A stretch of DNA of 64,000 nucleotides from Pseudolabrys sp. (GTDB taxonomy: Bacteria; Pseudomonadota; Alphaproteobacteria; Rhizobiales; Xanthobacteraceae). Of the stretch, positions 4,177 through 36,925 are shown in pieces. Every line of letters starts with the position of its first letter. Position 1 is the first letter of the stretch. Position numbers and translations under genes: made by a program. A model generated the notes under the pieces. That model made no database searches and was not told where the DNA came from. It worked only from the letters and a program-made list of their open reading frames with translations. Where the stretch lies: positions 1 through 64,000 of the forward strand of contig JAHCKG010000016.1 in NCBI GenBank assembly GCA_026125895.1, read 5' to 3'.

Positions 4177-4914
4177 ATGGCCCTGATCGATACTTTCAAT
4201 AACCTCGCCAACCCGACGCGATTTCTGGCGCTCGCCAATCGTGTGCTGCCGTGGCTGACGGCGCTGACGGTGATCGCCTTTGCCTACGGGCTGTACCGCG
4301 TCGCCTATGCGCCGGACGACTACCAGCAGGGCGCCACGGTCAAGATCATGTTTCTGCATGTGCCCGCCGCGTGGCTCGCCATGATGGGCTGGGGCCTGAT
4401 GACCGTTGCAGCCTTCGGCACTTTGGTGTGGCGGCATCCGCTGGCCGACGTCGCCGCGCGGGCGGCCGCGCCGATCGGCGCCGCCTTCACGTTCATCTGC
4501 CTGATCACGGGTTCGCTGTGGGGGCGGCCGATGTGGGGCACCTACTGGGTATGGGATGCGCGGCTGACCTCGGTGCTGGTGCTGTTCCTTTTGTATCTCG
4601 GCATGCTGGCGCTGTACTGGACCGCCGAGGATCCGAACCGTTCGGCGCGCGCCGCCGCGATCCTCGCGCTGGTCGGCGCCATCAACATCCCGATTATCAA
4701 GTTCTCGGTCGACTGGTGGAATACCTTGCACCAGCCGGCCTCGGTGATCCGCATGGGCGGCTCGGCGATCGATCCGTCGATCCTGGTGCCTTTGCTGATC
4801 ATGGCGCTCGCCTTCACCTTGCTCTTCTTCACGCTGCATCTGGCGGCCATGCGCAACGAGATCCTGCGCCGGCGTGTTCGCAGTATGCGCATGATGCAGG
4901 CGGCCTCCGTATGA
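4177..4914 (+). CDS. ccmC: Haem exporter protein CcmC
   Basis: Multi-pass membrane protein that binds haem and delivers it to the chaperone CcmE. The tryptophan-rich haem-binding motif WGRPMWGTYWVWD is at residues 115-127, followed by LTSVLVLFLLYLGMLAL. The ATG at 4177 (MALIDTFNNLANPTRFLAL) is preferred over an in-frame start about 200 bases upstream, because that extension is arginine-rich and overlaps ccmB. The protein has 245 residues, the family's usual length. Its stop overlaps the ccmD start (ATGA at 4911-4914). Confidence 0.95.
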   Translation: MALIDTFNNLANPTRFLALANRVLPWLTALTVIAFAYGLYRVAYAPDDYQQGATVKIMFLHVPAAWLAMMGWGLMTVAAFGTLVWRHPLADVAARAAAPIGAAFTFICLITGSLWGRPMWGTYWVWDARLTSVLVLFLLYLGMLALYWTAEDPNRSARAAAILALVGAINIPIIKFSVDWWNTLHQPASVIRMGGSAIDPSILVPLLIMALAFTLLFFTLHLAAMRNEILRRRVRSMRMMQAASV

Positions 4915-30586: not shown

Positions 30587-30725
30587 TGTTTACTCTCCGA
30601 AAAAATTCCCCGGTCTGGTTTGATTTGAAACAACCGGATGGCAGGGCTTCTAAGCGAAGATGACGCTTCTGACAACGGCACCAGAGGCTTTAAGCGCGAT
30701 CCGACGCCCTGCGAGGCTCGTACCC

Positions 30726-31499
30726 ATGCATCCGGCCCTGCATTCCTGGCGCGAGGAACTGCCCGCCAACGTCGTGCGGCTGCTGGCTTATGTGGGTGCC
30801 CTGGTCGTCCTGTCCATGGCGGCGGCGCAATTCTTTCAATCGAAGTCGTTGAAGCCACCCATCGCGCCCGGTGATCGGTCGGACTGGATCACGATCGAAA
30901 AGCCGTTCCCGGCCTTTACCCTCGCCATTCCCGAGGCCGCCGGCCAGCCCGAAAGCTATGTCATCCGCCGCCATGCCACCGGTAACGGCCGCAAGGACAT
31001 CCTGGGCCTCGGCGCGCCCGACGGCGCGACGCCCTATCTTCACGTCGAGATCTATCGGGCCGGCAAGGAAATCACGCAATTCGCCACGCCCGAGGAAACC
31101 ATCGCCGCCGATGCCGTGGCGCTCGCCCCCGTCAAGATCGCGGCGGCCGGGCCGGTCGCCAGCAAATTCGGGCCGCTGACCCTCCTTACGTTCGAAACGG
31201 TGCGGGACCCGCCACGTTACTGCCTCGCCTTCACCCGCACCTATGACGATCCGCTGCTGCAAATCTCCGGCTGGTTCTGTCAGGGCGGCACATTCGTCCA
31301 GGACTCGACGCTCGCCTGCGCGCTCGACCGGCTGACGCTGATCTACTCCGGCAGCGACCCCAAGGTCGGCGCGCTATTCGCCCAGGCCGAGCTCAACCGC
31401 AGCTACTGCGGCCAGCGCGATCCGCTGCTGGCGGCGACGCCGAAATACCATGCGCTGTGGAAGGCGCTGGAGGGTCAGCCGCCGCGCCGCGCCCGCTGA
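30726..31499 (+). CDS. Membrane-anchored protein of unknown function
   Basis: No family recognised. From ATG 30726 (MHPALHSWREELPANVV) it has 257 residues: one N-terminal transmembrane helix (LLAYVGALVVLSMAAAQFF) and a probably periplasmic remainder with several cysteines (PPRYCLAFTRTY, WFCQGGTF, TLACALD, RSYCGQ). An earlier in-frame ATG at 30660 would add 22 residues. It is divergent from asd and convergent with the cytochrome gene at 31512. Confidence 0.75.
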   Translation: MHPALHSWREELPANVVRLLAYVGALVVLSMAAAQFFQSKSLKPPIAPGDRSDWITIEKPFPAFTLAIPEAAGQPESYVIRRHATGNGRKDILGLGAPDGATPYLHVEIYRAGKEITQFATPEETIAADAVALAPVKIAAAGPVASKFGPLTLLTFETVRDPPRYCLAFTRTYDDPLLQISGWFCQGGTFVQDSTLACALDRLTLIYSGSDPKVGALFAQAELNRSYCGQRDPLLAATPKYHALWKALEGQPPRRAR

Positions 31500-31511
31500 C
31501 GGCAGCGGCGT

Positions 31512-31871
31512 TCACTGGTTGGCGAACGGATTCTGCCAGCCGCGCGCTGCCGGCTCGGTCTGCGGATAATGCGTCGAGAGATAATCGAGGATCAGCTCGC
31601 GATCCGCGCCTTCGATCGCCGGCATGCCCTGACGTTCCGTCATCCAGGTGAGCGTGTCGTTCCAGCGCTGCCGGCTCATGCCCTGCTGCGCCACCAGCTT
31701 GAAATTGTGGCAGGCGGTGCAGGTGTAAAACGTCTCCTCACGGCCCGGGCCCGCCGGCAGCTCTTCGATATTCTCCTCGCGCGGCGTGAATGTCTTCGGC
31801 TGCGCCGCAACGTAGCCGGCACTGACCGCGATGAACCCGGCGGCGGCGATGAGCGATAGCAGTCTGCGCAT
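31512..31871 (-). CDS. c-type cytochrome associated with sulfite oxidase
   Basis: Small periplasmic monohaem cytochrome of 119 residues. A signal peptide (MRRLLSLIAAAGFIAVSAGYVAAQ) precedes the haem motif CTACH with C51, C54 and H55; a methionine in QGMSRQRW or RQGMPAI could be the axial ligand. It lies 92 bases downstream of the molybdenum enzyme at 31964 on the same strand and is probably its electron acceptor, like SorB. Confidence 0.85.
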   Translation of the reverse strand: MRRLLSLIAAAGFIAVSAGYVAAQPKTFTPREENIEELPAGPGREETFYTCTACHNFKLVAQQGMSRQRWNDTLTWMTERQGMPAIEGADRELILDYLSTHYPQTEPAARGWQNPFANQ

Positions 31872-31963
31872 GGGCGAAAGCGATCCGTCGGTTCGCGATT
31901 GAGATTTGAAAACGCCGGACAGGTCGTCCCTGCCCGGCGCTGCGTCTGTGCGTCGTTGAGCGA

Positions 31964-33310
31964 TCAGCCGATCAGCACCGCCACGCGGTGCATCGGATTG
32001 CCGCCGTAGCCCGACGGATTCCAATTCGGCGCGACATGCGGTTGCATGCGGCCGTTGGTGTCCATGGCCCGCGCCCAGATTTCGTAATAGCCGTCGCGCG
32101 GCAATTTCACCGAGGCCGTCCAGCGCTGCCAGTCGTAACGGTTCTTGCCTTTTTCCAGCTTGGTCGGTTGCCACGTCACGCCGTAGTCGGTCGAAACATC
32201 GACGCGGCGCACGGTGAGATCGCCGGCCCACGAAGCGCCGCGCAGCTTCACCTCGCGCGTGCCGGCGGCAAGCTTGGCGCCGTTGGCCGGGCTGGTGATG
32301 ATCGAGCGCACCGGCATCGATTCGAGAATCTTGAAGTTCTTGGGATCGGCCTTGCCGCCCGGCACCATCGGATTGATGGTGAGCCGATAGGACGTGCCGG
32401 TCATGCCCGGCCCGTCATGCTCCTTGTCGCGGATGACGATCTTGGTCAGCCATTTCTGCGACGCCGATCCGGGCCAGCCCGGAATGAGCAACCGCACCGG
32501 GCCGCCATGGATATTCGGCAGCGGCTGGCCGTTCATCGCCCAGACGATCATCGACTCGGGATCCATCGCCTTGGCGATGCGCACGCCGCGCGACAAGGTC
32601 GGCTTGCTGGCGTCGCCCGACAGATGCAGGTCCGACGAATAATGCGCGGTGTAGATGCCGGCCGGCTTAACACCGGCCGTCTTCAGCACGTCGGCGAGAC
32701 GCACGCCGGTCCATTCGGCGCAGCCGGCGCCGCCATTGGTCCACTGATTGCCGCTGGCGGTCGGCGAGTAGAACGAGCGCCCATTGCCGCCGCATTCGAG
32801 AACCATGCGGCGGGTCTGCGCCTTGTATTTCGACTTGAGCTCGCCGAGCGTGAGCGTCAGCGGGTTGTTGACCTCGCCCTCGACCGTGAAACTCCACTTC
32901 TCCGGCTCCTTGGCTTCGTCCGGAATCTGCCCGTTGTTGCGGATGAAAAACTTCTCATACGGCGTCGTGTCGTCATCGAGCAGGTTCTCCGGCGTCTCCG
33001 CCACCAGCGGGCGCTCGCCGATAACGACCAGCCCTTTGTTCTTGCCGGGGAAGTCGAGATTGATCGGCCCTTTCTTGGCCGGCGCCGGCGGCGCGGAGCC
33101 TTGGGCCATCGCTGCCGGGATCAGGCCGCCCGGCATGTTGTCGGCAAAGGGAATGGCGCCGCCGACCGCAGCGCCCATCGCGGCGAGCCCCGCGCCGTTG
33201 AGGAAGCCGCGGCGGCTTGGACCGGTCTGGCGTCCGAACGCGACGGCATCGGCGCGTTCCGGGTCGTCCCGATAAAGCTCCTCGATCGAACGTTCGGTCT
33301 TCGACGACAT
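31964..33310 (-). CDS. Sulfite oxidase-family molybdenum enzyme (Tat-exported)
   Basis: Periplasmic molybdopterin oxidoreductase of the sulfite oxidase family. A Tat signal is present (SRRGFLNG at residues 32-39, then a hydrophobic stretch). The molybdenum-ligand cysteine is C173 in VLECGGNGRS. MNGQPLPNIHGGPVRLLIPGW and the C-terminal dimerisation domain (VRRVDVSTDYGVTWQ, WARAMDTNGRMQP) complete the fold. From ATG 33310 it has 448 residues. The cytochrome c at 31512 is downstream. The divergent ECF sigma gene may respond to its substrate. Confidence 0.92.
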   Translation of the reverse strand: MSSKTERSIEELYRDDPERADAVAFGRQTGPSRRGFLNGAGLAAMGAAVGGAIPFADNMPGGLIPAAMAQGSAPPAPAKKGPINLDFPGKNKGLVVIGERPLVAETPENLLDDDTTPYEKFFIRNNGQIPDEAKEPEKWSFTVEGEVNNPLTLTLGELKSKYKAQTRRMVLECGGNGRSFYSPTASGNQWTNGGAGCAEWTGVRLADVLKTAGVKPAGIYTAHYSSDLHLSGDASKPTLSRGVRIAKAMDPESMIVWAMNGQPLPNIHGGPVRLLIPGWPGSASQKWLTKIVIRDKEHDGPGMTGTSYRLTINPMVPGGKADPKNFKILESMPVRSIITSPANGAKLAAGTREVKLRGASWAGDLTVRRVDVSTDYGVTWQPTKLEKGKNRYDWQRWTASVKLPRDGYYEIWARAMDTNGRMQPHVAPNWNPSGYGGNPMHRVAVLIG

Positions 33311-33412
33311 GGCGTTCCCCCGTGTTTTGGCCCGGCAAGGAGCCTTTTTCACCGCAAAGGCTACTGAGGCGAAAAAAATTGCTCAATGCGACCGAATGCC
33401 ATGCGTTGTGAT

Positions 33413-33438
33413 GGAATAATTTCGTGGCGTTGCGCGTT
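33413..33438 (+). promoter_or_regulatory. Candidate ECF-type promoter of the ECF sigma gene
   Basis: GGAATAAT (-35, from 33413) and CGTT (-10, 33435-33438) with 17 bases between GGAAT and CGTT. The same element is found at 34781 before the sorA-like gene. It lies about 40 bases before the sigma gene start, as expected for an autoregulated ECF sigma. Confidence 0.55.
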
Positions 33439-33476
33439 GCCTGCCGCGCCATTGAAATCGTTGCTTTAATGCCGCC

Positions 33477-34028
33477 GTGGACGAATACTGCCCGCGCCAT
33501 CTCATCGGCGCGGGACGAAACGGCGTGCCCCACGATCCTCACCAGGCTTTGACCGGCTTGCTGCCGCGGCTTTATGCCTTCGCGCGCACCATGCTGGCGG
33601 ATGCCGATGCCGCGCGTGATCTGGTGCAGGAAGCGGTGACGCGCGCGCTCGCCGCGCGCCGGGTGCCCGACGACGCACCGGCCTATCGCGCCTGGATGTT
33701 TCGCATCGTCCGCAACGCCGCGCTTGACGAGATTCGCCGTCTGAAGCGGCCCGCGCCCGACGCCGGCACCGGTAACGATGTCTGGACTTATGACGACGCC
33801 AGCATCGCCAAGATCACGGTCGAACAGGGACTCGCGACGCTACCGGCGGCGCATCGCGAAATTATCTCCTTGATCGATATTGCCGGTTTCAGCTACGGCG
33901 AGGCCGCCGATTTGCTGCATGTGCCGGTCGGCACGGTAATGAGCCGCATCGCAAGGGCGCGCAGCGCGCTGCTGGCGGCGATCGAGACGAGCAGCGTCAG
34001 GCCGCTCAAGGTGAACCAACGCATCTGA
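33477..34028 (+). CDS. ECF-type RNA polymerase sigma factor
   Basis: Group 4 sigma factor. Region 2 is in LPRLYAFARTMLADADAARDLVQEAVTRAL and YRAWMFRIVRNAALDEIRR; region 4 helix-turn-helix is in LPAAHREIISLIDIAGFSYGEAADLLHVPVGTVMSRIARARSAL. The start GTG 33477 gives 183 residues; an internal GTG before PHDPHQALTGLLPR is possible. The next gene encodes its likely anti-sigma factor. In Sinorhizobium meliloti, as I recall, ECF factors RpoE1 and RpoE4 respond to sulfite and control a periplasmic sulfite dehydrogenase operon, which fits this neighbourhood. Confidence 0.9.
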   Translation: MDEYCPRHLIGAGRNGVPHDPHQALTGLLPRLYAFARTMLADADAARDLVQEAVTRALAARRVPDDAPAYRAWMFRIVRNAALDEIRRLKRPAPDAGTGNDVWTYDDASIAKITVEQGLATLPAAHREIISLIDIAGFSYGEAADLLHVPVGTVMSRIARARSALLAAIETSSVRPLKVNQRI

Positions 34029-34044
34029 TCATCGGACTTGAAGC

Positions 34045-34764
34045 TTGGAACGCGATCAACAGCAGCAGCAGGACCTGGAGAAGCTGAACGCTCTCGTCGA
34101 TGGCGAATTGCCGCCGGACGAACGTGCGGCCCTGGCCGGCAGGCTGGCGAACGAGCGCGATCTGGCGCGCGCCTACGCGACGTTGGCGCGGCTCAAGGCG
34201 ACCATCGGCGAAGTTGCCGATGCGCCAATCGACGCGCCGGTCTTCGACCTGCCGCGGCGCCGGCCGGCGCGGCTCGTTCGCGAGCTCGCGATCGGCGCCG
34301 GTCTCGCCGCCATGGTGGCGGCCGGCATTCTCGTCGCACTGCCGCGCACGCCCGAACCCGAAGCGCCGCTCGGCGAAGGCCCGACGGCGATCACGCTGGC
34401 GTCACTGCCGGCCGGCACCACCGTGCCGCGACTTGAGACGGCGGGCCTCAAGCTTACCGGGCTGGTCATCGATCCGGGCAAGGTGCCGCTGGTGTCGGCG
34501 ACCTATCGTGGCCCGCATGGCTGCCGGCTGGAGCTGCGCGCCTGGCCGATCGACGTGGCAGCGCCGGAAACGGCGAACGCCGAGCGCCACCGCTGGGTCG
34601 CCGGCAACCTGGTCTATGAACTGATCGCTCATGGCATGCCGGCGACACGCTTCGCGTTGATTGCCGGCGCCGCCGAAGGCCAGACGGCCGCCAATGCCGA
34701 TCACGACCGCATCGGCCGCCAGCTCCGGCAGGCCAGCCACGGCGCGCCGCCCTGCGCCGGCTGA
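34045..34764 (+). CDS. Anti-sigma factor, single-pass membrane protein
   Basis: Probable anti-sigma factor for the ECF factor next to it. The start TTG 34045 gives ERDQQQQQDLEKLNALVDGELPPDERAAL; LVDGELPPDERAALAGRLANE is the typical N-terminal anti-sigma helix set. A transmembrane helix follows at about residues 79-97 (ELAIGAGLAAMVAAGILVAL), leaving a periplasmic domain of about 140 residues that could sense stress. No zinc-binding HxxxCxxC is visible. The protein has 239 residues. Confidence 0.85.
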   Translation: MERDQQQQQDLEKLNALVDGELPPDERAALAGRLANERDLARAYATLARLKATIGEVADAPIDAPVFDLPRRRPARLVRELAIGAGLAAMVAAGILVALPRTPEPEAPLGEGPTAITLASLPAGTTVPRLETAGLKLTGLVIDPGKVPLVSATYRGPHGCRLELRAWPIDVAAPETANAERHRWVAGNLVYELIAHGMPATRFALIAGAAEGQTAANADHDRIGRQLRQASHGAPPCAG

Positions 34765-34780
34765 ATTGCAATCCGGTAGC

Positions 34781-34806
34781 GGAATAATCCGGCGACCCTC
34801 TCCGTT
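34781..34806 (+). promoter_or_regulatory. Candidate ECF-type promoter of sorAB
   Basis: GGAATAAT (from 34781) and CGTT (34803-34806), with 17 bases between GGAAT and CGTT, matching the element at 33413. The sorA ATG is 76 bases further on. Confidence 0.6.
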
Positions 34807-34824
34807 TCTTCCCTGTTCCCGAAT

Positions 34825-34842
34825 GCGTGACGTGGGTCACGC
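34825..34842. promoter_or_regulatory. Palindrome in the sorA leader (CRP/FNR-like spacing or hairpin)
   Basis: GCGTGAC-GTGG-GTCACGC, a perfect 7-base dyad (8 with the next T/A). Its core GTGA-N6-TCAC matches CRP/FNR family sites. It lies downstream of the candidate ECF promoter, so it could be an operator or an RNA hairpin. Confidence 0.4.
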
Positions 34843-34881
34843 AGGTCGAGGGCCGCCGTAAGCGGCAACAAGGAGGAAACG

Positions 34882-36111
34882 ATGCTACCCATCAGTCGCC
34901 GGGGATTCCTCGGCACGACGGCCGCTGCCGGCGCGGCCCTTATCGGAGGATTTGGCCGGTTCACCGAAGCGCAGGCGGCGTCGGCCGCGTCGCAGTTGAG
35001 CCCCGGAGTGCCGGACGGCATCGCCGGCTATGTGCAGATGGGCACGCTGCCCGGCAAGCAGCCGCTGATCCAGCTCGCCGATCGGCCGCCGAATTATGAA
35101 TCGCCGCTCGAATATTTGCAGACGCCGATCACGCCGAACGACAAATTCTTCGTGCGCTATCACCTCGCAGACATCCCCGAGATCAAGGTCACGGATTACA
35201 GGATCAAGGTCGACGGCGACGGCGCGGCGACGCCGATGGAGCTCACGCTCGACGACCTGAAGAAGATGCCGGCGATCGAGATCGCCGCGGTCAACCAGTG
35301 CTCGGGCAACCGCCGCGGCCTGTCGAAGCCACATGTGCCGGGCGTCGAATGGGGCTACGGCGCCATGGGCTGCGCCAAATGGAAGGGTCCGCGGCTCAAG
35401 GACGTGCTCGCCAAAGCCGGCATCAAGAAGGAAGCGATCGAGGTCGCCTTCAACGGCGCCGACGGCCCAGTGGTCGACAAGACGCCGGATTTCATCAAGA
35501 GCATTCCGGCGTGGAAGGCGATGGATGAGAACACCATCATCGCCTACGAGATGAACGGCCAGCCGCTGCCGCACTTCAACGGCTTTCCGGCGCGTCTCAT
35601 CGTGCCCGGATGGACCGGCACCTACTGGATGAAGCATCTCGTGCACATCGATGTGCGCACGACACCGCAAGGCGGCTTCTGGATGAAGCCCGCTTATCGC
35701 GTGCCGGTCGGCCTGTTCCCGTTGCGAGACCGCTTCGTCTCGCAGGAGGACGCCACATCGACGCCGATCACCGAGATGGTGGTCAATTCGTTGATCACCA
35801 GCCACCGCGACGGCGCCAAGGTGAAAGCTGGCAAGGTCACCGTCTCCGGACTCGCCTGGGATGGCGGCTACGGCATCGGCAAGGTCGAGGTCTCCACCGA
35901 CGGCGGCAAGACCTGGTCCTCGGCCAAGCTCGGTGAGGATCTCGGCAAGTTCGCCTTCCGTCCGTGGAGCTTCGACGTGCAGGTGAAGGGCAAGGCCACG
36001 GTGATGGTCAACGCCACCAACGCCATTGGCCAGACGCAGGTCACCAAGCTGCTGTTCAACGGCGCCGGCTACCACAACAACGTGATGCAAAGCATCACGT
36101 TGTCCGCTTAA
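34882..36111 (+). CDS. sorA: Sulfite:cytochrome c oxidoreductase, molybdenum subunit (SorA-like)
   Basis: Oxidises sulfite to sulfate in the periplasm and passes electrons to a small cytochrome c. A Tat signal (ISRRGFLGTT) opens the protein; the molybdenum-ligand cysteine is C140 in AAVNQCSGNRRG, the SorA-type motif. EMNGQPLPHFNGFPARLIVPGWTGTYWMKHL and the C-terminal domain (VEVSTDGGKTWSSA, LLFNGAGYHNNVMQ) follow. The protein has 409 residues. AAGGAGG at about 34870 is a strong ribosome-binding site. The partner cytochrome gene starts 14 bases downstream. Confidence 0.93.
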   Translation: MLPISRRGFLGTTAAAGAALIGGFGRFTEAQAASAASQLSPGVPDGIAGYVQMGTLPGKQPLIQLADRPPNYESPLEYLQTPITPNDKFFVRYHLADIPEIKVTDYRIKVDGDGAATPMELTLDDLKKMPAIEIAAVNQCSGNRRGLSKPHVPGVEWGYGAMGCAKWKGPRLKDVLAKAGIKKEAIEVAFNGADGPVVDKTPDFIKSIPAWKAMDENTIIAYEMNGQPLPHFNGFPARLIVPGWTGTYWMKHLVHIDVRTTPQGGFWMKPAYRVPVGLFPLRDRFVSQEDATSTPITEMVVNSLITSHRDGAKVKAGKVTVSGLAWDGGYGIGKVEVSTDGGKTWSSAKLGEDLGKFAFRPWSFDVQVKGKATVMVNATNAIGQTQVTKLLFNGAGYHNNVMQSITLSA

Positions 36112-36125
36112 GGGAGGCACCGCAC

Positions 36126-36407
36126 ATGCGCATCATCATTGCCGCCATTGCGGCCATCTTCCTCGCCGGCCCGGCCTTCGCCGACGAGCAGGTCATCAAG
36201 CTCAAGCAGGCGCCGGGCGTCGACAAGGTCGAAAACAACTGCCAGGCCTGTCACACGCTGGCCTACATCCCGATGAACTCGGTCTATCTCAACGGCGCTG
36301 GCTGGGACGCCGAGGTCACCAAGATGATCAATGCCTACGGCGCCCCGGTGGACGCCGAGGACGCCAAGGCGATCGCCGAATACCTCAAGAAAAACTACGG
36401 CAGCTGA
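36126..36407 (+). CDS. sorB: Sulfite:cytochrome c oxidoreductase, cytochrome subunit (SorB-like)
   Basis: Monohaem cytochrome c of 93 residues: a signal peptide (MRIIIAAIAAIFLAGPAFADE), then the haem motif CQACH with C39, C42, H43; the methionine in YIPMNSVYL or VTKMINAY may be the axial ligand. It follows sorA by 14 bases, so it is cotranscribed. A terminator follows at 36434. Confidence 0.9.
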   Translation: MRIIIAAIAAIFLAGPAFADEQVIKLKQAPGVDKVENNCQACHTLAYIPMNSVYLNGAGWDAEVTKMINAYGAPVDAEDAKAIAEYLKKNYGS

Positions 36408-36571: not shown

Positions 36572-36925
36572 ATGCGCCTGAAATTCGTTGCGACGAGCTG
36601 CGCCGCGCTCTGCGCGCTGGCCGTTCTGGCCGTGCCGGCCGATGCCCAAACGACCCGCAAACGGGTCTACGCCAACCGCGACCAGACCGTGGTCGTGACC
36701 CGTGGCGAGGACGGTAAAACCCGCACTCGCGTCATCATTCAGAAGCGCTCCTTCCTCGATCCGGGGCCGGAACTGCTGCCGGGCAGCCGCCACGACCTCG
36801 ACTACGCGCAGCAGCCCAACCACCGCGCCGACGGCATCCTCAACAACACCGTCGCCGGCGGCAACCAGACCGCCCTCCCGGGTCCGTGGGATCTGGGCCC
36901 GCGCGGTCCGTGGCTGAAGTTCTGA
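36572..36925 (+). CDS. Small secreted protein
   Basis: No function known to me. From ATG 36572 (MRLKFVATSCAALCALAVLAVPADAQTT) it has a signal peptide and a mature part of about 92 residues that is basic at first (RKRVYANRDQTVVV) and then Gly/Pro/Asn-rich (RHDLDYAQQPNHRADGILNN, GPWDLGPRGPWLKF). An in-frame ATG at 36542 is less likely. A terminator follows. Confidence 0.72.
   Translation: MRLKFVATSCAALCALAVLAVPADAQTTRKRVYANRDQTVVVTRGEDGKTRTRVIIQKRSFLDPGPELLPGSRHDLDYAQQPNHRADGILNNTVAGGNQTALPGPWDLGPRGPWLKF

Follow-up and report, generated by a model that had tools for sequence, protein, structure and literature searches.

An ECF sigma factor module, probably of the sulfite-responsive RpoE4/SigE type, between two sulfite-oxidase-family enzymes of Pseudolabrys, with a conserved cysteine pair in its anti-sigma factor

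In the 64,000-nucleotide stretch of Pseudolabrys sp. DNA analysed here (the window), gene and profile reading placed an ECF sigma factor gene and a membrane anti-sigma factor gene between two Tat-exported enzymes of the sulfite-oxidase family. This arrangement raises two questions: which of the enzymes the sigma factor controls, and how the anti-sigma factor might perceive sulfite. We consider it likely that the locus is a sulfite switch of the RpoE4/SigE kind, by which sorAB is induced while the divergent enzyme is not a target.

Layout of the locus and relationship of the two enzymes

The sigma factor gene was located at 33,525-34,028 on the forward strand, with Sigma70_r2 and r4_2 both over their Pfam cut-offs. 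A GTG start at 33,477 was rejected because the aligned start of the relatives corresponds to GTG 33,525, which is probably the true one. The anti-sigma factor gene (34,045-34,764, forward) encodes 239 aa with one hydrophobic helix, at residues 77-97 in a model that has low confidence there. On the same strand lie a SorA-like sulfite dehydrogenase with a Tat leader (34,882-36,111) and a SorB-like monohaem cytochrome c with the motif CQACH (36,126-36,407). The reverse strand carries the second, divergent enzyme, here called SorA2, with a twin-arginine leader (31,964-33,310), and behind it another small monohaem cytochrome c with the motif CTACH (31,512-31,871). Both enzymes consist of Oxidored_molyb and Mo-co_dimer domains with twin-arginine leaders, and both small proteins have one CxxCH each, leaders and haem motifs being read from the sequence. 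These domains, leaders and motifs confirmed the earlier sequence-only reading of a sigma/anti-sigma pair between two Tat-exported molybdenum enzymes, each with its own small cytochrome c.

That reading had also described a duplicated sulfite-oxidation system, which proved wrong. The two enzymes are only about 33% identical and are mostly alternatives in relatives, so a recent duplication was rejected; SorA2 is a distant paralogue, found elsewhere with its own sigma factor or with none. The SorA equivalog profile (NF052245, cut-off 600 bits) gave 433 bits for the gene at 34,882 and 247 bits for that at 31,964, the SorB equivalog (NF052246, cut-off 93 bits) gave 75 and 35 bits, and SoxC (TIGR04555, cut-off 420 bits) gave 177 and 169 bits, none of which reached its cut-off. 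Both enzymes are sulfite-oxidase-family proteins though they fall below the curated SorA cut-off.

In Pseudolabrys and near genera, the same slot held a sigma factor with one enzyme, a sigma factor with the other enzyme, or the second enzyme without a sigma factor; loci with a cis sigma are referred to as types A and B, and sigma-less loci as type C. A SorAB-type sigma joined to the second enzyme was found only in the window among 43 genomes of the genus. None of the three closest type A relatives had a collinear counterpart of the stretch 31,495-33,460, which comprises SorA2, its cytochrome and the ECF-type element at 33,413. The locus lies in a slot in which relatives mostly hold the two enzymes as alternatives.

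Promoter elements and proposed regulation of the two enzymes

Two ECF-type elements of the form GGAAT-N17-CGTT were found on the forward strand exactly where they had been claimed, at 33,413-33,438 before the sigma gene (GGAATAATTTCGTGGCGTTGCGCGTT) and at 34,781-34,806 before sorA (GGAATAATCCGGCGACCCTCTCCGTT), with 17 bases from GGAAT to CGTT in both. They show the -35 GGAATA and the -10 with GT that are promoter traits of the ECF26 / RpoE4-SigE sulfite-oxidase group. The chance expectation for the window was 0.01, and none of 100 shuffles held two elements. In the searched genome of 4,522,234 bases, which is 82% complete, the pattern GGAATAATN{13,15}CGTT matched solely at the two window places; however, the reversed-pattern control likewise gave 2 matches, so that the number of matches is not significant by itself. 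The broader pattern GGAATAWN{15}CGTY matched at three genome places, two of them in the window, with 1 match for the control. The third match, on another contig, had no same-strand gene start within 1.5 kb after it by a crude ORF reading, and no larger regulon was found. What is remarkable is the placing of the two sites, 1.4 kb apart, one before the sigma gene and one before sorA. That only 2 useful ECF sites exist in an 82% complete genome counts against our explanation.

As had been noted from the sequence, the element was absent before the divergent enzyme, and a looser pattern, GGAA[TC]-N15-18-[CT]GT, was also not found within 330 nt before that gene. The promoter-like sequence of SorA2 is TTGAGC-N17-TAGCCT (33,358-33,386, reverse), common to sigma-less relatives (5 of 9 type C loci, 0 of 12 type B loci); the underlying TTGA/TAGGCT pattern was drawn by eye from the alignment and set after the fact, and all promoter-like sequences described here are consensus matches. 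We then compared the slot across relatives. The ECF element preceded the enzyme gene in 20/20 loci with a cis sigma (8/8 of type A and 12/12 of type B) and in 0/9 sigma-less loci of Pseudolabrys and near genera, while in class-level loci further out it preceded the enzyme in 20/20. In a set chosen by the enzyme, for which 16 named plasmid loci were fetched out of 240 matching records, the element stood before the enzyme gene in all three loci with an ECF sigma and in none of the 13 without. Against this pattern, in two loci with this kind of sigma (L072 and L308) the GGAATAA-N before the enzyme leads into CGAT or CGTG, not CGT[TC]. The elements are conserved and co-inherited with the sigma gene, and the promoter type in the slot changes with the presence of the sigma. 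The contrast of 20/20 with 0/9 loci, together with the sigma-less type of promoter-like sequence before SorA2, supports the proposal that the sigma controls sorAB and not the divergent enzyme, and split regulation of the two enzymes is well supported.

In our explanation, the membrane anti-sigma would keep the sigma bound until sulfite is present, and the released sigma would direct transcription at GGAAT-N17-CGTT before sorAB. In the lineage of the window it might also act on its own gene through the element at 33,413, with a housekeeping-type promoter providing the basal supply; the candidate for the latter is TTGCTT-N17-AATACT (33,461-33,489, forward), at the position of TTGC..-N17-GATAGT in type A relatives. 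The divergent enzyme and its own cytochrome would be read from a housekeeping-type promoter. With sorAB under the sigma and the divergent enzyme outside its control, the window would therefore hold, around a single sigma, a sulfite oxidase that is induced and another that is probably standing, a natural contrast. That sulfite is the signal and that the sigma recognises the element is inferred from experimental work on S. meliloti and St. novella. In two species, both induction by sulfite and dependence on the sigma were seen (PMC6527743). Sulfite itself gave immediate strong induction in two species with this sigma type in Tan 2019 (PMC6527743), whereas externally added sulfite gave no induction in Bastiat 2012 (PMC3511301).

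Two other readings of this regulation have to be weighed. Sulfite might induce both enzymes, with a different regulator or ECF sigma acting on the divergent one, given two further genome matches to the sigma (34 and 37% identity) and the cross-talk of RpoE1 and RpoE4 in S. meliloti (PMC6527743). We consider this improbable, since no ECF-like element precedes the divergent gene, which has the promoter-like sequence seen in sigma-less relatives. Autoregulation of the sigma, which had been predicted along with control of sorAB, stands on weaker ground. The element at 33,413 matches perfectly and shares its N17 spacing with the sorA promoters, and autoregulation of rpoE4 was shown in S. meliloti (PMC6180224, PMC6527743). 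However, an ECF element before the sigma gene was absent in all Pseudolabrys relatives compared and is a minority feature in the wider pair-bearing set, where it was clear only in L022, L277, L353, L356, L359 and L366. In addition, 6 of 8 type A relatives retain the housekeeping-type promoter-like sequence, and sigE of St. novella is not autoregulated (PMC6527743). These points would fit an inactive 33,413 element, with the sigma made only from TTGCTT-N17-AATACT as in relatives, a possibility that we regard as doubtful. Matches of the GGAATATT type near the sigma in class-level loci were rejected as autoregulatory promoters, as most lie inside the sigma gene once its start is mapped.

The cysteine pair of the anti-sigma factor

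The anti-sigma has only two cysteines, C160 (34,522-34,524, forward) and C237 (34,753-34,755, forward), both behind the helix. Zinc-binding anti-sigma factors (ZAS) carry the motif HxxxCxxC. This class was rejected for the window protein, in which only cysteines 160 and 237 occur, HxxxCxxC is absent and zf-HC2 scored below its cut-off. No Pfam family exceeded its cut-off on the anti-sigma, two lectin matches from a sequence comparison with solved structures (E 1.6e-6 over 31 positions; another at 0.09) were judged to be chance, and a fold search gave nothing convincing, the best PDB match (E 0.12) being the anti-sigma ChrR.

Within their C-terminal 120 residues, 79/79 distinct anti-sigmas of the window's type have exactly two cysteines, and 0/72 related anti-sigmas outside the pair clade do. 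W184 and R202 were also invariant in the first 41 sequences; the truncated sequence L052 was excluded from the alignment. The pair-bearing anti-sigmas mark one sigma clade, and the pair needs only one change on the sigma tree, so its link with sulfite genes does not represent independent events. Moreover, the wider searches used a profile made from pair-bearing anti-sigmas and therefore lean towards the pair; the low-scoring rows examined were 36 of 109 at class level and 14 of 21 at the Rhizobiaceae family level, mostly the best-scoring. Two other sets are free of this bias. In the one chosen by sigma similarity, 16 loci had the pair and an oxidase, 76 had neither (some being spurious frames), and none was mixed; in the one chosen by the enzyme, the pair was present in 3/3 plasmid loci with a sigma. 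Three of the 79 had no visible sulfite oxidase: contigs end at L306 and L364/L381, and in L305/L385 the pair is kept and a YeiH-type transporter gene follows, not an oxidase. Four pairless low-scoring sister loci have a sulfite-oxidase relative on the opposite strand; its distance is 1.3 kb in L290, and in L336, L338 and L339 it lies where the fetched stretch ends. A search of 398 genomes at phylum level found nothing high-scoring beyond the class, so that the pair counts do not extend to the group 3 systems that Tan 2019 describes in betaproteobacteria. Plasmid records searched with the window anti-sigma protein (E up to 1e-5) gave no match, though relatives of it are present in the three plasmid loci that the enzyme led to.

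Sensing of sulfite by such anti-sigmas was stated as unknown (PMC6527743, Discussion; PMC6180224). What is new here is the cysteine pair, which we propose, tentatively and from its conservation, as the sulfite sensor. A periplasmic C160/C237 disulfide would anchor the C-terminal tail to the domain, and its sulfitolysis by sulfite would leave S-sulfocysteine and a free tail. Exposure of the freed tail to proteolysis, or a change of shape, could then release the sigma. If true, the pair would mark the whole sulfite-responsive subfamily.

It is a serious possibility, if short of an even chance, that the pair is merely a structural disulfide tying the C-terminal tail to the sheet, with sulfite sensed by another part, such as a W184/R202 site, or by a partner, and the sigma released by regulated proteolysis. 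Invariance of both cysteines is expected of a structural bond, other residues are invariant too, and a pair that marks a single clade makes the link with sulfite genes one event, not many; on the other hand, the related anti-sigmas outside the clade do without it, and it is kept in L305 beside the transporter gene. We think it unlikely that the anti-sigma senses another thiol-reactive signal accompanying sulfur oxidation (persulfide, tetrathionate, a metal or an oxidant). SnRpoE1 was linked to tetrathionate (PMC6527743), and thiol-based sensing has been proposed for Caulobacter NrsF, whose response to chromate and cadmium involves its two periplasmic cysteines (PMC3511200). However, NrsF belongs to a different, six-helix family, and the immediate strong induction in two species was given by sulfite itself.

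Comparison with known sulfite-responsive systems

The system belongs to a sulfite-responsive type, RpoE4/SigE, that has been described before (Bastiat 2012, Tan 2019). In the sigma tree, the window sigma falls on one side of a single branch with 42 rows (99/82), apart from 49 other ECF rows. The RpoE4 type stands in this tree through L356 and L359, genomes whose sorT promoter is equal or nearly equal to the published S. meliloti one; in L356 (G1626) it is identical, and its anti-sigma has the cysteine pair. In the ECF26 group, the gene downstream of the sigma encodes an anti-sigma with an N-terminal anti-sigma domain, one helix and a periplasmic domain. Gene position and the hydrophobic helix of the window protein fit this layout, but the helix has low confidence in the model and no Pfam anti-sigma domain is over its cut-off.

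Caulobacter SigF-NrsF resembles the window in an anti-sigma with two conserved periplasmic cysteines and in a regulon that includes a YedY-type molybdenum enzyme, but NrsF is a DUF1109 protein of other architecture that answers to other signals (PMC3511200). The link to S. meliloti RpoE1/RpoE4, named in the sequence-only reading, was right according to the literature. In Sinorhizobium meliloti RpoE4-EcfR4 (ECF26), sigma and anti-sigma likewise lie beside a sulfite dehydrogenase; the genes under its control are those of SorT, SorU and pseudoazurin (sorT-sorU-azu2), and the operons as described in these sources are without a divergent second enzyme (PMC3511301, PMC6180224). Its mapped promoters are GGAAT-N16/17-CGTC (Table 1, PMC6180224), with CGTC at -10 in place of CGTT in the window. 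Closer still is Starkeya novella SigE, in which the account in PMC6527743 gives no ECF promoter before sigE and mentions no second enzyme, but which shares with the window the order sigma, anti-sigma, sorA and sorB and the ECF promoter before sorA, and in which the heterodimeric SorAB is sulfite-induced (PMC6527743).

Layout of the two-enzyme locus and its ECF elements

The locus lies in a 4.52 Mb genome (50 contigs, 82% complete), in a slot bordered on one side by genes for carbonic anhydrase and aspartate-semialdehyde dehydrogenase and on the other by nrdB/nrdA, as assigned by reading the translations. On the plus strand, the ECF sigma gene is followed by the anti-sigma gene and then by the genes for a SorA-like enzyme (34882-36111, +) and a SorB-like cytochrome (36126-36407, +). 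The minus strand carries SorA2 (31964-33310, -), which belongs to the sulfite oxidase family and has a twin-arginine leader, and its monohaem cytochrome (31512-31871, -). Named relatives place the genome in Pseudolabrys; among the best matches to the sigma was Pseudolabrys sp. Root1462, at 88% identity. The nearest solved structure for both enzymes was 2blf, the SorA subunit of St. novella (333 bits for the SorA-like enzyme, 186 bits for SorA2). Since neither enzyme nor cytochrome reached the curated SorA, SorB or SoxC cut-offs, 'SorA-like' is the limit of naming. Elsewhere in the genome, four more Oxidored_molyb genes were seen on contigs C12, C16, C14 and C1, the C12 gene (L228) sharing about 31% identity with SorA. 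Two genes lacking a Pfam match flank the slot (30660-31499 and 36572-36925); they were present in most relatives read, and mark the slot as a fixed gene-exchange site.

The sequence-only reading had placed ECF elements before the sigma gene and before sorA, and GGAAT-N17-CGTT was found at both positions (33413 and 34781), confirming the elements and the two-enzyme locus. In the genome-wide search that it had proposed, GGAATAATN{13,15}CGTT matched only these two elements. The reversed pattern, used as a control, also gave two genome matches, so the number is unremarkable; the remarkable point is their place. The pattern GGAATAWN{15}CGTY gave three genome matches versus one for its control, with no visible same-strand gene start after the third. 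The same build is found in mapped S. meliloti promoters, those of rpoE4 (GGAATAAGCGAGGCAGCTCGCTCGTC) and sorT (GGAATTTTCCGGGGCGTCAGTCGTC), in Table 1 of PMC6180224. As had also been claimed, SorA2 in the window lacks the ECF element; a promoter-like TTGAGC-N17-TAGCCT lies at -76.

The slot and its promoters in relatives

We fetched the locus from genus and family relatives and sorted it by gene order. Type A (8 loci; L211, L212, L213, L216-L220) carries sigma, anti-sigma, SorA and SorB. Type B (12 loci; L197-L200, L214, L215, L221, L222, L224-L227) carries sigma, anti-sigma, SorA2 and cytochrome, L199 lying at a contig edge with only the anti-sigma end present. Type C (9 loci; L201-L209) carries SorA2 and cytochrome without the sigma/anti-sigma pair at the slot, with SorA and SorB additionally present in L205 and L206. 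Outside the count stand L210, which has neither sigma nor element and whose enzyme is more distant (57%), and L223, a fragment. In L198, L201, L214, L215 and L223, the slot also holds a further SorA2-like gene (about 60% identity), adjoining the cytochrome of SorA2.

The ECF element preceded the enzyme gene in 8/8 type A and 12/12 type B loci, and in 0/9 of type C. In type B it lies at -97 to -104 of SorA2; in its place, five of the nine type C loci and none of the 12 type B loci carry a TTGA..-TAGG/CT-like sequence (hexamer spacing 16-17), a pattern drawn from the alignment of these loci and thus a description, not a blind test. The promoter region of these nine sigma-less Pseudolabrys loci with SorA2 (L201-L209) differs. 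Beyond these relatives, the element was found before the enzyme gene in all 20 class-level loci (L265-L284), and two other loci with the same kind of sigma deviate at the -10 (CGAT in L072, CGTG in L308). In several loci (e.g. L020-L022, L357, L358, L361-L363) the enzyme start fell outside the fetched stretch. Sampling was also done from the enzyme side: a search with SorA2 found matches in 240 plasmid records, and 16 of these were fetched, picked for variety. Three had an ECF sigma nearby (Nitratireductor kimnyeongensis, Bradyrhizobium betae and a Sulfitobacter), and the element preceded the enzyme in 3/3 of these versus 0/13 without the sigma. At another sigma locus, L382, three GGAATAAT-type elements lie at 4530, 8928 and 8965, two of them back to back on opposite strands and one of these before a sulfite oxidase, possibly a larger local regulon.

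Autoregulation of the sigma, predicted from the sequence-only reading, fared less evenly: the element stands before the window sigma, but was found before none of the sigma genes scanned among Pseudolabrys relatives, and in the wider set before a minority (L022, L277 and the Sinorhizobium-like L353, L356, L359 and L366). This patchiness indicates that autoregulation comes and goes in the subfamily, and the window would be one case with it. A promoter-like TTGC..-N17-GATAGT lies before the sigma gene in six of eight type A relatives at -61 to -66 and in a seventh at -89, with none in L218; the window has TTGCTT-N17-AATACT at -64.

Across 43 genus genomes, a sigma at at least 65% was found in 16 and SorA2 at at least 74% in 18, and SorA2 occurred together with a type A sigma in the window alone. 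Compared with the three closest type A loci, the window's flanks match at 81-86% as far as 31493/31494, and the match resumes at 33461, 33523 or 33559; for the intervening 2 kb those loci have nothing collinear. The window SorA2 shares 91% identity with SorA2 of G430, a type B genome. Taken together, the flank matches, the break and this likeness indicate that the window locus is a mosaic: a type A locus to which SorA2 and its cytochrome were added, or which was alone in keeping them.

A cysteine pair in the anti-sigma factor

The window anti-sigma contains only two cysteines, which both follow the hydrophobic helix: C160, within Y-R-G-P-H-G-C-R-L, and C237, two residues short of the C-terminus. 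Both were found in 41/41 anti-sigmas of a first set, whose identity to the window protein falls as low as 25%, together with invariant D19, L22, Y154, G156, W184 and R202 (Y154 can be F in the wider set). A profile built from 31 of these and run on 385 class-level genomes gave two score groups. In the high group, the 20 loci above 100 bits besides the window all had the pair and a sulfite-oxidase gene within 0.8 kb, and the pair was in 0/36 examined of the 109 lower rows. Low-group L290 has a sulfite-oxidase relative 1.3 kb off on the other strand, behind a putative LysR regulator gene, and three sister loci resemble it. Among the 394 genomes of G023's family, Rhizobiaceae by their content, all 16 high-scoring loci had the pair, one with a variant motif; a sulfite oxidase was nearby in 15 (at 2.3 kb in one, where it has a separate element), and one locus lay at a contig edge. 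Neither pair nor oxidase was found in the 14 of 21 low-group loci examined there. The sorT promoter of high-group L356 is identical to the one published for S. meliloti.

With identical C-termini removed, the last 120 residues contained exactly two cysteines in 79/79 high-group proteins, with a spacing of 76-93 (measured in 78), and two in 0/72 other anti-sigmas. A set chosen by sigma similarity held 16 loci with oxidase and pair, 76 with neither and none mixed.

Clade history and comparison with known systems

When 91 sigma factors were placed on a tree, those with a pair-bearing anti-sigma formed one side of a single branch (99/82), so the tie between pair and sulfite oxidase is consistent with a single ancient event followed by inheritance. 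The functional case for the pair rests on its strict invariance in a fast-changing protein. Inside this clade, L305 (1727-3304) has a pair anti-sigma followed by a YeiH-family gene (PF03601; TIGR00698 'putative sulfate export', below cut-off), and GGAAC-N17-CGTT lies between the two, about 340 nt upstream of the YeiH-family reading frame; the surrounding 18 kb (L385) contained no sulfite oxidase. A plasmid of Methylobacterium radiotolerans also has a gene with the annotation 'putative sulfate exporter' beside a sulfite oxidase, with no ECF sigma found at that locus. This fits a signal that was kept while the target changed, though in a single case.

The regulatory reading made from sequence was largely right and mostly already known: earlier publications describe the promoter type, sulfite as the signal and the control of sorT and sorA by the sigma (PMC3511301, PMC6527743, PMC6180224). 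The locus itself is an unusual two-enzyme variant. The Discussion of PMC6527743 calls the sulfite-sensing mechanism unknown; 'cysteine', 'disulfide' and 'Cys' are absent from its main text, and searches of the open-licence literature turned up no paper on cysteines in these anti-sigmas. The cysteine pair is the wider result, and makes the sulfite-sensing question testable. A precedent comes from another family, Caulobacter NrsF, in which two periplasmic cysteines are important for the release of sigma (PMC3511200).
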